A stretch of 25,815 nucleotides of DNA from a virus. Shown one piece after another: positions 7,059-22,502 of the stretch. The notes under the pieces were generated by a model. It had not been told where the DNA came from. It made no database searches and was given only the letters and a program-made list of their open reading frames with translations. Location: positions 1-25,815 of the IMG/VR virus record IMGVR_UViG_3300027969_000391, one strand, 5' to 3'. Positions within the stretch are counted from its first letter, which is position 1. Each line of letters begins with the position of its first letter. Made by a program: the position numbers and the translations under genes.

Positions 7059-7204
7059 TGGATACCGTAGATATCCTAGCAAAGATATGGCCTCTATTAG
7101 TAGGGTTTGTAACGCTTGTTATTGTGCTTGCCAAAATGGATAATAAAGTGTCTGTTCTTGAAGAAAAAGTAAAAACGCTGTTTGAACTTTGGAATAAAAA
7201 ATGA
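7058..7204 (+). CDS. 48-residue single-span membrane protein
   Basis: ATG at 7058 shares bases with the upstream TAA (TAATG), and the TGA at 7202-7204 overlaps the next ATG (ATGA). The product has one N-terminal transmembrane segment (WPLLVGFVTLVIVLAKM, residues 11-27) and a short charged coiled-coil tail (KVSVLEEKVKTLFELW). It has the same plan as the next gene: one span, then a cytoplasmic or periplasmic coil. The tight coupling on both sides is the best argument that it is real. It may be a holin partner; family unknown. Confidence 0.65.
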   Translation: MDTVDILAKIWPLLVGFVTLVIVLAKMDNKVSVLEEKVKTLFELWNKK

Positions 7205-7470
7205 ATATTCAAGACGTTCTAAAAGCAGTACTCCCAATTGTTGTAGCGTGTTTAGCGTGGCTACTAGGTCAAGTATCAGACTTTTCTACACGGCTGACTA
7301 AAATTGAGGGACAAATGCCTGCCCTAATAACTAAAGAAAATGTGCCGACTGACTCGCCTTTGTCTGCCGAGGCAAGGCATAAACTGAGAAATGAAATTTA
7401 CACAGACATACACCAATTACAAGTTAAGGTGCAGTTACTTGAAGAACGTGAAAAATATGGGAAAAAATAA
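7201..7470 (+). CDS. 89-residue single-span, coiled-coil phage protein
   Basis: Overlaps both neighbours by ATGA-type junctions. An N-terminal transmembrane segment (VLPIVVACLAWLLGQV, about residues 10-25) is followed by TRLTKIEGQMPALITKENVP and a helical tail (LQVKVQLLEEREK). The TRLTxIEGxMPALIT...VPTDSP stretch is a pattern I associate with small proteins next to lysis genes in aquatic phages; its function is not known to me. The layout (one span plus coil) would suit a spanin-like or holin-regulating role, but there is no embedded lipoprotein gene to support an Rz/Rz1 pair. Confidence 0.7.
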   Translation: MNIQDVLKAVLPIVVACLAWLLGQVSDFSTRLTKIEGQMPALITKENVPTDSPLSAEARHKLRNEIYTDIHQLQVKVQLLEEREKYGKK

Positions 7471-15272: not shown

Positions 15273-17243
15273 ATGACAATCCTATATATTGATTTCGAAA
15301 CACGCTCACGCTGTGATCTACCTAGCCGTGGCGTGTATAACTACGCAAGGGATGCTAGCACGTCGGTGCTTTGCCTCTCTTATGCGTTTGATGATGAGGA
15401 AGTGCAGTCGTGGTTGCCTGATCAAGAATTCCCGTGGCAGATTGTTGACCATATCGTATCAGGTGGTCAAATTCGGGCGCATAACGCTGCGTTCGAGCGC
15501 TTGATTATGTGGTACGTCCTCTGCCCAGACAAAGGAATCCCAGAACCGACGACGGAACAGTTCTATTGTACAGCTACTCAGGCGCGTGCCAACTGTGCGC
15601 CAGGCTCGCTTGATGACGTGGGTAGATTCGCAAGCGTGAATATGCGTAAGGATCACCGTGGCAATCAACTGATTCGCTTGCTATCTATCCCCAAAGCCGA
15701 TGGTACATTTAATAATGATGTGACGCTGATGGCTGAGATGGTCGCTTATTGCGAGCAGGACGTTCGGGCAATGCGTGCGATTAGTCAAGCTATGCGTCAA
15801 CTGTCAGATGATGAGCTGTTAGACTATCATGTTAATGAGAAGATTAATGATCGTGGGGTATTGCTAGACAAACCCCTAGCCGAATCAGCGATTAAGTACG
15901 CAAGTGCAGAGTTAATAGAAATAGAGAATTTAGTAGCAGAATTGACAGATGGTGAAATATTAAGCGTGCGGAGTCCACGGATGCGTGAGTGGGTGCTTGC
16001 AAGAGTTGGCGATCAGGCCAAGAAGTTAATGGAAAACTACAAAGATGGTGACAAAAAATACTCAATCGACAAGACAGTTCGAGCTAATTTACTTGTGTGT
16101 GCTGAAGAAAATCCCGATGAAGTACCGCCGCAAGTTGCTGATGTTGTCCAATGCGCGGACGACCTATGGGCGTCTAGTGTCGCAAAATTTAAAAGATTAA
16201 AGGATCTGGCTGATGAAGAAGATAACCGAGTTCGTGGAGCATTTGTCTTTGCTGGTGGCGCAGCCACAGGTCGGGCAAGTAGTTACGGAGCGCAAGTCCA
16301 CAACTTTACCCGAAAGTGTGCCAAGGAGCCTGATGCCGTTAGATCCGCTATGGTTAGAGGCCACTCAATTGTCCCTGCCTTTGGACGACGTATTACCGAT
16401 GTACTCAAGTCAATGCTTAGACCTGCCCTCGTATCCGATAGGGGAAAATCATTAGTCGTTGCAGATTGGGCAGCCGTTGAAGCACGCGTCAACCCGTGGT
16501 TGTCTAACTGTCCAGCAGGCATCAAAAAACTAGACTTATTCCGTACAGGTGAGGATGTTTACAAGGTCAACGCTAGTGCGACGTTCCACGTGCCTGTTGA
16601 TCAGATTACATCCGAGCAGAGGCAGATTGGCAAGGTGCAAGAGTTAGCGTGCGGATTCGCAGGTGGCGTGGGAGCGTTTGCTGCGATGGGTAGGGCGTAT
16701 GGTATTTTGTTGCCTGAACCTGAAGCCAAGCGCATGGTTAATGCGTGGCGTTTGGCGAACCCGTGGTCGATGCCGTACTGGCAAGACCTTGAAAATGCTT
16801 ATACACGGGCGATGCGTAACAAAGGACATGAGTTTAGAGCAGGGCGAGTAACCTATTTATTTGATGGGCAACACTTGTGGTATGCACTTCCAAGTGGGCG
16901 TGTGTTATGCTATCCCTTCGCACGGTTAGATCAAGATGGAGTCAGTTATGCCAAAGCATCGTGGAAACCCGCAGCAGACGCTAAAGAGTGGCCAAGAGCT
17001 AGACTATGGAAAGGACTCGCCTGTGAAAACATTACACAAGCAGTCGCCAATGACTTACTGCGACACGCTTTGCGAGGCTTGGATGATGTGGTTTTGCACA
17101 TCCATGATGAAATTGTGGTCGAGTCAGCAACACCCGAAATAGCAGTACAAATAATCAAAGACGTTATGTGTACCCCACCCGCATGGGCTGAGGGTTTACC
17201 ACTAGACGTAGAGGCAAGCATTATGACAAGGTATGGAAAGTAA
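15273..17243 (+). CDS. Family A DNA polymerase with 3'-5' exonuclease (Leu at position 762)
   Basis: 656 residues. Exonuclease: YIDFETRS gives D7 and E9; AHNAAFE near 69-75; YCEQDV supplies Y149 and D153. Polymerase: GRASSYGAQVHNFTRK (333-348); motif A VADWAAVEAR with catalytic D398; motif B (O helix) SEQRQIGKVQELACGFAGG with R450, K454, L458 and F462; motif C LHIHDEIVVE with H611, D612 and E613. L458 aligns with F762 of E. coli Pol I (Y526 in T7), and F462 with Y766. Single-subunit polymerases of this kind replicate the genomes of T7-like and related phages. The N-terminal 5'-3' exonuclease of Pol I is absent, as usual in phages. Confidence 0.95.
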   Translation: MTILYIDFETRSRCDLPSRGVYNYARDASTSVLCLSYAFDDEEVQSWLPDQEFPWQIVDHIVSGGQIRAHNAAFERLIMWYVLCPDKGIPEPTTEQFYCTATQARANCAPGSLDDVGRFASVNMRKDHRGNQLIRLLSIPKADGTFNNDVTLMAEMVAYCEQDVRAMRAISQAMRQLSDDELLDYHVNEKINDRGVLLDKPLAESAIKYASAELIEIENLVAELTDGEILSVRSPRMREWVLARVGDQAKKLMENYKDGDKKYSIDKTVRANLLVCAEENPDEVPPQVADVVQCADDLWASSVAKFKRLKDLADEEDNRVRGAFVFAGGAATGRASSYGAQVHNFTRKCAKEPDAVRSAMVRGHSIVPAFGRRITDVLKSMLRPALVSDRGKSLVVADWAAVEARVNPWLSNCPAGIKKLDLFRTGEDVYKVNASATFHVPVDQITSEQRQIGKVQELACGFAGGVGAFAAMGRAYGILLPEPEAKRMVNAWRLANPWSMPYWQDLENAYTRAMRNKGHEFRAGRVTYLFDGQHLWYALPSGRVLCYPFARLDQDGVSYAKASWKPAADAKEWPRARLWKGLACENITQAVANDLLRHALRGLDDVVLHIHDEIVVESATPEIAVQIIKDVMCTPPAWAEGLPLDVEASIMTRYGK

Positions 17244-17297: not shown

Positions 17298-19610
17298 ATG
17301 CACAACTTTTTAGAGTTTATCACGAATTTAGCGCCAAATGGCGAGACTGCCTTGATTGTGCGCCAAAAGCCACAACTAAAAGATGGCGAATTACAGTTGC
17401 ACGCTGACGGCGCTATTAAATGCACATGGCCTGCGTACTTGCCAAGTCAGAAGATGCGTGCGGGTGAGGCGTGGTACATCAATACGGCGTCATTTATCAT
17501 AGACCGTTTTGAGGAAGGACGCGTATCCGCGTCGGCAGCCAACTGCGAGTTCGTTCTCTTTATGATGTTAGATGATATTGGTACAAAGTCGAAAACACCG
17601 CCCCTTGCACCGACATGGATTCTTGAGACAAGCCCTGATAATTTTCAATACGGCTATGCTTTTTCTGAGCAACCCACAAAGGGTGAGTTCACGGCAGCAG
17701 TCAAAGCTATTGCAGCCGCAGGGTACACCGACGCTGGCGCTACTAATGCAGTTCGTAATGTGCGTCTGCCAGGCTCGATTAACCTAAAGCCTGGGCGTGA
17801 TAACTTTGAAGCCAAGCTAGTGGAGTTTCACCCTGAGCGTGACTACACGCTAGGCGACATTTGCACGGCGTTGGGCGTAACGCCTGCGCCTGCTGATACG
17901 AACTACTATGCGCCAATCAGGTTAGCCGACAATGGTGGCGATGATGTGTTAGCATGGATGAATGATCAAGGCATGGTATTGTCGAAGATCAACGGCGAAG
18001 GGTGGTTATCAGTCACTTGCCCTAACAACGCCGAACACACCGATGGCAACCCCGAAGGTCGGTACAAACCCCTAGATCGTAGTTATTGTTGCCTGCACTC
18101 GCATTGTGTCGATTTCGGTAGCCAAACATTTTTAGATTGGGTTGCCGCTAACGGTGGCCCTAAAGTTACACATGGCCTGCGTGACAAATTGATTGCCGAG
18201 GCGATGACTGTTGCGCTTGCCAAGATTACACCTAGCGATATGTTCACCGATGACGCCGATGCCAAGATAGCCGAAGTCGAGCGTAAAGAGTTAGGTCGTG
18301 TCGAGAAGTCCAAGTGGTATGAGCGTTTCGCTTACGTTCAAGACGATGAGTCTTATTTTGATATGCAAGACCGTCGTGAGGTGTCCAGACAGACGTTCAA
18401 TGCGCTATTTCGTCATATCAAGTGTATGTCACTTCATGCGCCTACCACTAGAGTCGAAGCATCTATTTCCTACGATCAGAACAGACAAGCGTCAGGCGCC
18501 AAAGCGCTTGTGGGGATTACCTACGCTGCGGGTGAGACTGTACTCGTAGCCCGTGACGGCGACTTGTACGGCAACCGTTGGCGTGACGCTAGACCTGATG
18601 TGTCTAGTGTCGTTGCGTCTGAGTCGAAAATAGCGTCCTGGTTAGACCATTGCCGTAACCTCATACCTGACCCAACCGAGTTAGAACACTTGTTTGACAT
18701 CATGGCTTGTAAGTTACAAAACCCACAGATTAAGATTAACCATGCCGTCTTGCATGGTGGCGATGAGGGTTGTGGTAAGGACACGATGTGGGCGCCGTTC
18801 ATCTGGGCAGTCTGTGGTTCGCACCTAAAGAACCGTGGCATCATGGATAACAACTCCATCAATAGTCAATGGGGTTATCAACTTGAGTCTGAGATTCTAT
18901 TGATTAACGAACTGAAAGAACCAGACGCCGCCGCCCGTAGGCAGTTGGCGAACCAACTCAAACCAATCATAGCCGCCCCGCCTGAGATGTTACCGATTAA
19001 TCGTAAGGGTTTACACCCATATCAAATGGCTAACCGTGTGTTCGTTTTAGCGTTCTCGAATGACCCTGTTCCAATCTCTTTAGCGTCTCAAGATCGTAGA
19101 TGGTTTTGCGTGTGGAGTTCGTTGCCACGCATGGACGCAAGAGAAGCCAAACAGATGTGGGATTGGTATCGCAACGGTGGGTTCGAATTGATTGCTGCGT
19201 GGTTACTGGCTCGTGATGTGAGCCAGTTCAATCCATCAGCAGCGCCAGCCATGACTGAGTTTAAGGCTAACCTGGTTGAACACGGCATGAGTATGGCAGA
19301 ATCGTTCCTTGTTGAGATGCTACGCGCTCGCAAGGGTGAGTTTGCCAAGGGCGTGATTGGTTCACCATTTCATGCGCTTTGTGATCGTTTGACTGGGTTA
19401 GCGCCCTCTAATGTGAAAATACCGCAAGCAGCTTTGTTACACGCTCTTAAAGAAGCTGGTTGGGTAGACTGTGGGCGGTTGAAGTCGAGAGAGTTTGACA
19501 CCAAGAAACACATCTTTGCCGATCCCGAATTAGCGACTATTCTAAGTAAGTCTGAGCTGAGACGCGCATTAGAGGATGCGCCTACGGCGCAAGTAGTCAA
19601 CACAAAATGA
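17298..19610 (+). CDS. Primase / SF3-like (DUF5906) helicase fusion
   Basis: 770 residues, with GGAAGGAAACACAAA before the ATG. The N-terminal part looks like a RepB/PrimPol-type primase: CEFVLFMMLDDIG with the DD pair at 92-93, APTWILETSPDNFQYGYAF, and VRNVRLPGSINLK. A putative zinc knuckle follows (C241, H247, C264/C265, H267/H269, C270). The C-terminal part has Walker A LHGGDEGCGKDTMW (K494), Walker B-like ILLINELKE (534-541), and a sensor-like VFVLAFSNDPVPI with DRRWFCV, typical of the DUF5906 branch of SF3 helicases. It should prime and unwind DNA for the adjacent family A polymerase. Iterons lie directly after its stop. Confidence 0.88.
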   Translation: MHNFLEFITNLAPNGETALIVRQKPQLKDGELQLHADGAIKCTWPAYLPSQKMRAGEAWYINTASFIIDRFEEGRVSASAANCEFVLFMMLDDIGTKSKTPPLAPTWILETSPDNFQYGYAFSEQPTKGEFTAAVKAIAAAGYTDAGATNAVRNVRLPGSINLKPGRDNFEAKLVEFHPERDYTLGDICTALGVTPAPADTNYYAPIRLADNGGDDVLAWMNDQGMVLSKINGEGWLSVTCPNNAEHTDGNPEGRYKPLDRSYCCLHSHCVDFGSQTFLDWVAANGGPKVTHGLRDKLIAEAMTVALAKITPSDMFTDDADAKIAEVERKELGRVEKSKWYERFAYVQDDESYFDMQDRREVSRQTFNALFRHIKCMSLHAPTTRVEASISYDQNRQASGAKALVGITYAAGETVLVARDGDLYGNRWRDARPDVSSVVASESKIASWLDHCRNLIPDPTELEHLFDIMACKLQNPQIKINHAVLHGGDEGCGKDTMWAPFIWAVCGSHLKNRGIMDNNSINSQWGYQLESEILLINELKEPDAAARRQLANQLKPIIAAPPEMLPINRKGLHPYQMANRVFVLAFSNDPVPISLASQDRRWFCVWSSLPRMDAREAKQMWDWYRNGGFELIAAWLLARDVSQFNPSAAPAMTEFKANLVEHGMSMAESFLVEMLRARKGEFAKGVIGSPFHALCDRLTGLAPSNVKIPQAALLHALKEAGWVDCGRLKSREFDTKKHIFADPELATILSKSELRRALEDAPTAQVVNTK

Positions 19611-19613
19611 ACC

Positions 19614-19682
19614 AAAAAATGGGAGCGTTTGTATGCAAAAAATGGGAGCGTTTTCCTACAAAAAACGGGAGCGTCTCTATGC
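19614..19682 (+). repeat. Three tandem 23-bp iterons after the primase-helicase gene
   Basis: Units at 19614-19636, 19637-19659 and 19660-19682 share A6-(T/C)-GGGAGCGT, then a more variable 8-base end (TTGTATGC, TTTCCTAC, CTCTATGC). The period of 23 is not a multiple of three, so the reading frame differs in each unit and coding is unlikely to maintain it. Spacing and place are as in iteron-type replication origins. Confidence 0.85.
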
Positions 19683-19756
19683 AAGAGTTAAAACAAAGTG
19701 ATTTGTAGGGGCGGCCTTAAAGGGTCGCCTGGTTGATTGATTGAAAAAATAAAAAG

Positions 19757-19781
19757 AAAAGCCCCTTGATTGGGGCTTTTT
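19757..19781. terminator. Bidirectional intrinsic terminator between convergent operons
   Basis: AAAAGCCCC (19757-19765) pairs with GGGGCTTTT (19772-19780) around the loop TTGATT. A T-run follows on the plus strand, and the A-rich left flank gives TTTTCTTTTTATTTTTT on the minus strand. It ends the plus replication operon and the minus accessory cluster. Confidence 0.9.
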
Positions 19782-19798: not shown

Positions 19799-19861
19799 TT
19801 ATAAGTCTAGCCAATAAGCGAATATCGTCGCCAATACGATGCCAAGTAAAATAAAAATCAT
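19799..19861 (-). CDS. 20-residue membrane miniprotein
   Basis: The ATG overlaps the preceding TGA (ATGA). Almost the whole product is one hydrophobic span, MIFILLGIVLATIFAYWLDL. It is the last gene before the terminator. Evidence for expression is only the exact coupling and the hydrophobic composition shared with its neighbours. Confidence 0.45.
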   Translation of the reverse strand: MIFILLGIVLATIFAYWLDL

Positions 19862-19968
19862 GTGCTAATTTTCCCATTGTATCTTGCCGCAAATAATTGG
19901 GCGCTAGTTTTATTAGTAAAGCGAATACTATAGTCCTCGCCTTGGATTGTGTAGTGGACGATGTACAT
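19858..19968 (-). CDS. 36-residue soluble miniprotein
   Basis: TAATG-coupled to the gene upstream and ATGA-coupled to the gene downstream. The sequence MYIVHYTIQGEDYSIRFTNK with SAQLFAARYNG looks like a tiny beta-beta-alpha fold. No family recognised. Confidence 0.5.
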   Translation of the reverse strand: MYIVHYTIQGEDYSIRFTNKTSAQLFAARYNGKIST

Positions 19969-20147: not shown

Positions 20148-20795
20148 TTAAGCCGCTTTTTTAAGCATAATAATTTTATGCATTGTTTTACCGTGTGCTG
20201 GGTAAGCGATTAATGGAATAGACTTATCATAGCAAGCTCGGCAACCATTGCATTTTCCATCATTGGCATAGGCTTGGCATAGCGTCATTCCCTTGGCAAC
20301 ATCATCCGCCGAGGCAATGATCACTGACCCATGCAATCCCTTAATATATTCGCCCATTACGCTATCGCTCGAAAATCGTACGCTAACATTTTTTAACAAT
20401 TTCATTGACTCTAATACAAGTCTATATTTTGGGAATTTATGCATTCTAGTCGGAAGCCAATGTTTTACCCAAGGGGTACGTTTCATTACTTCGAGAATTT
20501 TCTCGGCTAACCCCAAAGCAAACATATCGCCGCTATCGAACCAACGGAAATAACGGCTAGATTCTAAAGCTTTTACCATATCATCCGCCCAGTCTAACCG
20601 TTGCCAATCTAAGCGATTAAATTCCCTAGGGGCTTTTACATTAGGAAAGCGATAATTGCCATTGACGGCATAACATCCTTTACACGCATCGACCAGTTCG
20701 CCATTTTCAATCGATCCTTGGCAAGTATCCCTCGCTTGCAATGACCAAGATAAAATGCCATCGAGTTTACTTGTTTTACTAAGTTTTACACTCAT
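20148..20795 (-). CDS. GP88-like Cys-rich phage protein
   Basis: 215 residues, with AAAGGAATC upstream. The N-terminus KLSKTSKLDGILSWSLQARD, then TCxG and DACKGCYAVNGNYRFPNV, matches the gene product 88 (GP88) family found in many phages. The cysteines fall in two groups: C25, C38 and C41, then C173, C182, C185 and C188 (CQAYANDGKCNGCRACYD). The second group resembles a ligand set for an iron-sulfur cluster or zinc. RWFDSGDMFALGLAEKI in the middle is also typical. Biochemical role unknown to me. The protein lacks the CxxxCxxC radical SAM motif in the expected N-terminal place. Confidence 0.8.
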   Translation of the reverse strand: MSVKLSKTSKLDGILSWSLQARDTCQGSIENGELVDACKGCYAVNGNYRFPNVKAPREFNRLDWQRLDWADDMVKALESSRYFRWFDSGDMFALGLAEKILEVMKRTPWVKHWLPTRMHKFPKYRLVLESMKLLKNVSVRFSSDSVMGEYIKGLHGSVIIASADDVAKGMTLCQAYANDGKCNGCRACYDKSIPLIAYPAHGKTMHKIIMLKKAA

Positions 20796-22045: not shown

Positions 22046-22204
22046 CTTATTTTGTTACATTTATGCAAATAATTTTGATGTGGATAATTTGCATTGTCCA
22101 TGTGGATAATGATGTGGACAATGGCAAATTGATTGAAAGCATTGCCAGACTTCGATGTGGATATTGTGGATAGTTATATTTGACTAATTCAATGAAGTAA
22201 AAAT

Positions 22205-22213
22205 TGGTATATA
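22205..22213 (+). promoter_or_regulatory. Possible extended -10 element inside the array
   Basis: TGGTATATA, with TGn before TATATA, lies in the AT-rich gap. TTGACT at 22180-22185 is 22 bases away, too far for a normal -35. If active it would transcribe the right half of the array towards the terminase genes. Confidence 0.25.
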
Positions 22214-22294
22214 TAGGGTTGCTATTGTTGCGACTTAAAAGTACTTGTCCAAACTGCCCATTTGACCCACGTTTGTCCCTTGCCGTTTGTTCAC

Positions 22295-22355
22295 GGCTTT
22301 TGCCTTTCCCATGTTTGTGGGCAATGTGGACTATGGCTTTTGCCTTGCCCATGTT
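22295..22355 (+). repeat. 21-bp direct repeat at 40-bp period inside the array
   Basis: GGCTTTTGCCTTTCCCATG plus TT at 22295-22315 recurs at 22335-22355 with one change (T to G). Each copy contains one 9-mer of the array, so the array grew partly by duplication of a 40-bp segment. Confidence 0.8.
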
Positions 22356-22502
22356 GTCCACAATTAAAGGCATGGCGCATTAACTAAAAAACGATTGTCC
22401 ATGTTGCCCACATTGCCCATGCCCTCAAAGCCTTATATCTATTGGCTTGTAGGCTTGTGCGGCCCGAAACCCCTTATTTCTGCTGGCTTCCAGGTTTTGC
22501 AT

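Follow-up and report, generated by a model that had tools for sequence, protein, structure and literature searches.

The three-repeat array behind a phage primase-helicase gene as part of an optional cassette exchanged among related phages

Repeats of iteron type next to a primase gene readily invite the label of an origin, and the locus studied here raises the question of whether three 23-bp units directly behind the primase-helicase gene of a phage are read by that enzyme. The sequence analysed (the window) is a phage fragment, a 25.8-kb virus record of 25,815 nucleotides, that encodes a family A DNA polymerase, an exonuclease, an SNF2-type helicase, a cytosine methylase, the primase-helicase and terminase genes. 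The annotated phages closest to it are MW202483, with 54.5% identity in the primase and 74.2% in the large terminase, and phage DSL-LC05, with 67.0% in the large terminase. A comparison of 143 relatives separated this array from another set of repeats, upstream of terS: the latter follows wing residues of the initiator and the former does not. The coordinates of all features are provided in Table 1.

Table 1. Positions of the repeats, hairpins and genes discussed in the text, numbered along the window.
Feature	Position	Strand	Evidence
Type A repeat unit 1	19614..19636	+	repeat finding, comparison of units
Type A repeat unit 2	19637..19659	+	repeat finding, comparison of units
Type A repeat unit 3	19660..19682	+	repeat finding, comparison of units
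8-bp hairpin 3' of the array	19710..19729	+	DNA fold
Terminator hairpin with T runs on either side, common to both convergent operons	19757..19780		terminator calls, fold
Primase-helicase with RepB_primase and DUF5906 domains and a winged helix at the C terminus; flanks the swapped block on the near side	17298..19610	+	domain matches, predicted models
Primase-helicase codons 729-734 (KSREFD), wing loop	19482..19499	+	co-variation with terS-upstream repeats, predicted models
20-aa hydrophobic micropeptide MIFILLGIVLATIFAYWLDL, allele-linked to array type	19799..19861	-	micropeptide search, allele comparison
36-aa conserved gene (MYIVHYTIQGEDYSIRF...), stop overlapping the micropeptide start; flanks the swapped block on the far side	19858..19968	-	sequence comparison
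Candidate origin upstream of terS, with TGTGGA / TGTCCA-type repeats	22079..22421		co-variation with primase-helicase wing

A preliminary description of the window had reported three units with a fixed GGGAGCG core, starting just past the primase-helicase stop and ending ahead of the terminator, and all of this was borne out. TRF returned a period of 23, 3.1 copies and a score of 95, and the summed pairwise matches among the three units (56/69) were reached by 0/500 dinucleotide shuffles of the stop-to-terminator stretch at any period from 15 to 30. The core is present in each unit (19621-19627, 19644-19650 and 19667-19673), unit 1 begins at the fourth base past the TGA (19608-19610), and the terminator stem follows ~75 bp beyond the array. 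An extra copy of TGGGAGCGTTT was located at 16669, within the DNA polymerase gene; in the window, the type A core was found in the array and in this gene only, with none upstream of terS. Iterons typically span ~17-24 bp, a range that includes these tandem direct repeats of 3 x 23 bp. No large stem-loop was found 3' of the primase-helicase gene, where the window insert folds into the 8-bp hairpin, the terminator and minor stems; at the other loci, this was judged on the array alone.

Conservation of a 29-codon frame (19619-19708) had been named as the sign of a coding origin; the repeats would then be a coding remnant or a short gene. This frame is open in the window and also in the relative L091, there shortened to 25 codons, but an ATG stands at its start in just 2/20 type A arrays, it is cut to 8 codons in 6/20 (five of the six from close relatives), and the unit length of 23 bp is not divisible by 3. 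The frame is not conserved and the array is non-coding; a coding origin was rejected on this test, and we attach next to no probability to it.

Relatives were collected through scans with the window primase and with a distant primase, 80 loci being kept from each, and through pattern scans, which added repeat-bearing loci. After removal of copies, 143 distinct loci were typed from the DNA behind the primase-helicase stop, with 20 assigned to type A, 17 to type B, two to type C and 104 to none, so that an array of any type occurs in 39/143 rather than throughout the replicon family. Type A units measure 23 bp, as in the window, and their copy number varies from 2 to 5 around an unchanged core, as the preliminary description had anticipated; type B units measure 25-26 bp and are TCGAAAAAAGCGTCCCCAAACCTAA-like, and type C units measure 18-19 bp. 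Unit-type likeness by shuffles (n = 1000) came to 35 for A-C and 25 for B-C, which is too weak given three tests, and the same comparison revealed no similarity between A and B. The 19 type A stretches found by pattern all lie just 3' of the primase-helicase gene or, in one contig, of a small ORF after it, including two stretches with no visible primase match (L086, whose contig starts at the stop codon, and L099, a slice of the L118 contig). Type B stretches are likewise placed in 18/18 cases. Arrays precede the terminator, which in array-free relatives with a called terminator lies 3-12 bp past the stop in 46/68.

The array type was then compared with the phage proteins. On a tree of 140 primase-helicases (three of the 143 were left out as short), the array state changes at least 17 times, and the closest relative of the window, L043, carries a type B array at 95.6% primase-helicase identity. 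Within the close clade (8 A, 13 B, 214 variable columns), zero primase-helicase columns separate A from B, and the same applies to all 34 A and B primase rows; the array's repeat type thus does not follow the DNA-binding region of the initiator. Nor were A/B-separating columns found in the close clade for polymerase, exonuclease, nucleotidyltransferase, SNF2, VRR_NUC, or small and large terminase, with row numbers that vary by protein, down to 3 A. In the VRR_NUC protein, four C-terminal columns separate array from none (12 versus 4 rows). Gene content, assessed over 34 genomes for clusters present in at least four, yielded nothing convincing; an 89-aa late gene (3/12 A, 6/10 B, 0/10 none) was discarded as a correlate, its distribution looking like lineage.

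The repeats upstream of terS, analysed at first as a positive control for this test, behaved differently from the array. They were sorted from DNA alone into a class X (TGTGGA/TCCACA-like) and a class Y (TGACAA/TTGTCA-like); of 124 entries, 66 were X, 24 Y and 34 unassigned, some contigs being represented by two entries. Across 78 distinct proteins, primase-helicase residue 731 is R or G in 59/59 X and A or H in 19/19 Y, and is the sole perfectly separating column, a separation stable at six thresholds; residues 734 and 729 follow X/Y closely. On a tree built without residues 690-770, X/Y switches nine times, and supported independent pairs agree in 8/8 (p = 0.0078). Further classes, defined post hoc and with non-independent rows, pair wing KSR..D with TGTCCA (53/59), AS[AH]D.[KTPQ] with TTGTCA (21/22), M[SA]R[DE]Y[PT] with TGACTA (7/7), AS[GS][DE] with TGACC[CT]A (8/9) and GSFEHS with AGCCTAA (3/4), while a mixed A-SR wing group (n = 6) shows no clear pairing, ASRD.T accompanying TGTAAG in two. 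Taken together, such pairings would amount to a naturally occurring series of protein-DNA specificities among phage primase-helicases. Both predicted models place residues 729-736 in the wing, as a loop that connects two strands past a helix-turn-helix, with a pLDDT of ~83-94 in this region and a pTM of just 0.45 for the whole protein. With the C-terminal model, Foldseek returned nothing at E <= 0.001, and the rows from VIA-align were largely winged-helix domains, the best with a Z of 6.6 and an rmsd of 4.0 over 92 residues; such matches may be merely a common arrangement.

Repeat type is thus matched to the DNA-binding domain of the initiator at the terS-upstream array. Because their sequence co-varies with the C-terminal wing, these repeats are the better origin candidate and, judged from sequence, most likely represent the iterons of the primase-helicase that the phage itself encodes. 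They had been labelled DnaA-like, but their probable reader is the phage enzyme and not DnaA. Two origin-like loci had also been proposed: the terS-upstream one is retained as candidate origin, whereas the array behind the primase-helicase gene is not supported as an origin, because the enzyme seems to read the terS-upstream repeats instead. No association was detected between array type A and terS-upstream type, which served as a control.

In satellite phage P4, the primase-helicase likewise ends in a DNA-binding domain, and repeats occur at two loci, ori and crr, which have the same iterons. The window resembles P4 in the enzyme and in its two repeat-bearing loci, but these share no motif by eye. 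According to PMC4234260, which mentions P4 alpha, the origin of plasmid pRN1 lies downstream of its primase-SF3 helicase gene and requires a ~100-nt stem-loop. Both pRN1 and the window encode a primase-helicase with a winged helix at its C terminus and have a non-coding element immediately 3' of that gene, although the latter has just the 8-bp hairpin and the terminator, and its element is optional among relatives. For the PLE of Vibrio, PMC8263062 and PMC7145576 describe co-variation of the RepA DNA-binding domain with the iterons, as well as origin swapping. Such plasmid and satellite origins share with the array the iteron-length tandem direct repeats beside a replication gene, whereas here the co-variation is found at the terS-upstream repeats and is absent at the array. 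The position of the array and the pRN1 precedent would fit a primase-helicase that binds the repeats next to its gene and melts the duplex at that site, as in P4 or pRN1. Neither this reading, in essence that of the preliminary description, nor a standard part of the array in the origin is supported, given the absence of an array from 104/143 relatives, the switching of types between near-identical primases, the lack of any residue that follows the type, and the co-variation of the enzyme with repeats that have, by eye, no motif in common with the array; we consider primase-helicase iterons very unlikely here.

What follows the array type lies on the opposite strand past the terminator, namely an unannotated hydrophobic peptide of ~20 residues that ends mostly in DL or NL and is encoded by a gene of a size usually missed by annotation. 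A filter for it was positive in 65/104 array-free loci (a lower bound, the filter having missed, for example, the B locus L068, seen by eye), as well as in 15 A, 15 B and one C loci. Most close relatives have retained this peptide immediately beyond the terminator, and in the window its start sits within the final codons of the 36-aa gene. Position -5 of the peptide is E, Y or D in 15/15 readable A rows versus 3/79 others, and among eight supported independent pairs 7.7 agree on average and none oppose (median p 0.0078). L119 is an exception, with an A array and a non-polar micropeptide, which brings the tally to 15/16, and polar micropeptides without an array occur in L050, L056 and L067. No A/B distinction was seen in the 36-aa gene. 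Window and L043 are 88.1% identical over the 600 bp upstream and 94.6% over 990 bp from stop+259, with different sequence in between, and the likeness resumes within the 36-aa gene. As the array type tracks the micropeptide allele, and as the similarity resumes inside a gene that does not separate A from B, the exchanged block comprises the array, the terminator and the micropeptide, which move together. The cassette is therefore exchanged as a block among related phages, leaving A, B, C and empty alleles on nearly one backbone, and a swappable non-coding element is tied to a micropeptide gene.

We interpret the three repeats as the type A allele of this optional cassette. Situated where two convergent operons meet, the cassette runs from the primase-helicase stop through the array, its tail and the bidirectional terminator to the end of the opposite-strand membrane-peptide gene. 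In this interpretation, which we hold to be evenly poised between right and wrong, the array would be a putative cluster of factor sites and not a set of primase-helicase iterons. The type A unit is identical across clades whose fourfold sites agree at just 28.6-39.1%, and because it persists unchanged among lineages whose silent positions are saturated, the unit probably serves as a recognition site maintained by selection, although recent transfer may also account for the identity. No RNA folding signal was detected in the arrays relative to shuffled sequence (mean z -0.50 for 20 A and -0.36 for 17 B). Rfam, searched with eight sources, gave nothing at the gathering score, and the sub-threshold matches of the window insert fell mostly on the terminator. 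Searching with an array, blastn found zero matches in the phage collection and chance-level ones only in plasmids, and the exact type A pattern is absent from genome_contigs, a collection in which the hosts may be unsampled. On the basis of unit identity, missing folding signal and missing collection matches, the array was placed, as a best guess, as a site cluster for a factor not encoded by core phage genes, probably a host protein. The site of action might be the 3' terminus of the replication transcript or the junction DNA itself, and the cluster would be inherited along with the micropeptide allele; their linkage may also be mere exchange between conserved flanks. Likeness to CsrA-type GGA loops, boxA, IHF or rRNA was considered by eye alone and rejected, and the literature yielded nothing relevant on the combination found at this junction. 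More speculatively, and with rather low probability, array and membrane micropeptide could be two halves of one allelic module swapped under diversifying selection, e.g. when co-infecting phages compete or when a host factor has to be countered; the primase-helicase would meanwhile follow a separate, readable wing-to-iteron code of several residue/repeat pairings at the true origin upstream of terS.

The remaining explanations compete with the site cluster over the same observations. Functionless hitch-hiking or selfish repeats, i.e. slippage-prone filler recombined between conserved gene ends, would agree with the low-complexity tandem repeats that follow many arrays, and block exchange between conserved flanks would explain the linkage; as the unit is identical between saturated lineages and a few types recur in place of endless variation, we find this unlikely. 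Somewhat less probable still is an RNA decoy, in which the replication mRNA would carry the repeats in its 3' UTR and thereby sequester an RNA-binding protein of the host or imitate a type III antitoxin. The repeats are always on the sense strand between stop and terminator, optional, variable in copy number and of several sequence types, and the pseudo-ToxI of phage phiTE (PMC3475682) offers a precedent of phage tandem repeats with varying copy number. Its unit, however, is a 36-nt pseudoknot, whereas units here have 18-26 nt, that of the window being an unstructured 23-bp unit with no known host counterpart. Type III antitoxins form pseudoknots according to PMC5086642, in contrast to the folding result above, although pseudoknots lay outside that computation; the Rfam outcome and the absence of pattern A from the genome collection, with its possibly unsampled hosts, point the same way.

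A second, accessory origin or replication enhancer recognised by an initiator or nucleoid protein of the host has a similarly small likelihood: iteron-like spacing and unit conservation speak for it, but not every family member has an array, the three unrelated repeat sequences would call for one common host factor or for several distinct ones, and the insert, with 38-43% GC, is not especially A+T-rich. The micropeptide finally brings to mind a par/Fst-like type I toxin-antitoxin module, since a tiny hydrophobic membrane peptide, convergent transcription, a shared terminator and direct repeats are all present, the layout also described for par (PMC7472228). Yet in par both RNAs have to run through direct repeats close to the start of the toxin, where no copy of the 11-bp core of the unit (<=1 mismatch) occurs here, and the peptide is encoded by many array-free phages; this reading is extremely improbable.

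Some minor observations were made around the junction. Highly variable G-rich or CAGCTGG-rich minisatellites lie between array and terminator in L009, L012, L059, L061 and L119, and the contigs L073, L087 and L095 end near this region. In L119, just past 8298, a small ORF of ~69 aa was noted by eye between primase and array, its last codons crossing the first units. Palindromic AGTGNGCGCTCACT-like motifs of a GC-rich clade occur behind the L097 array and upstream of terS in G023, and also upstream of terS in G027. In the convergent operon of the window, the protein encoded at 20148-20795 (minus strand) matches Pfam GP88 (PF17338, E 3.5e-28), and near the corresponding junction of MW202483 (L260 in our set), a small protein at 7083-7379 (minus strand) is annotated as a DnaA helix-turn-helix.
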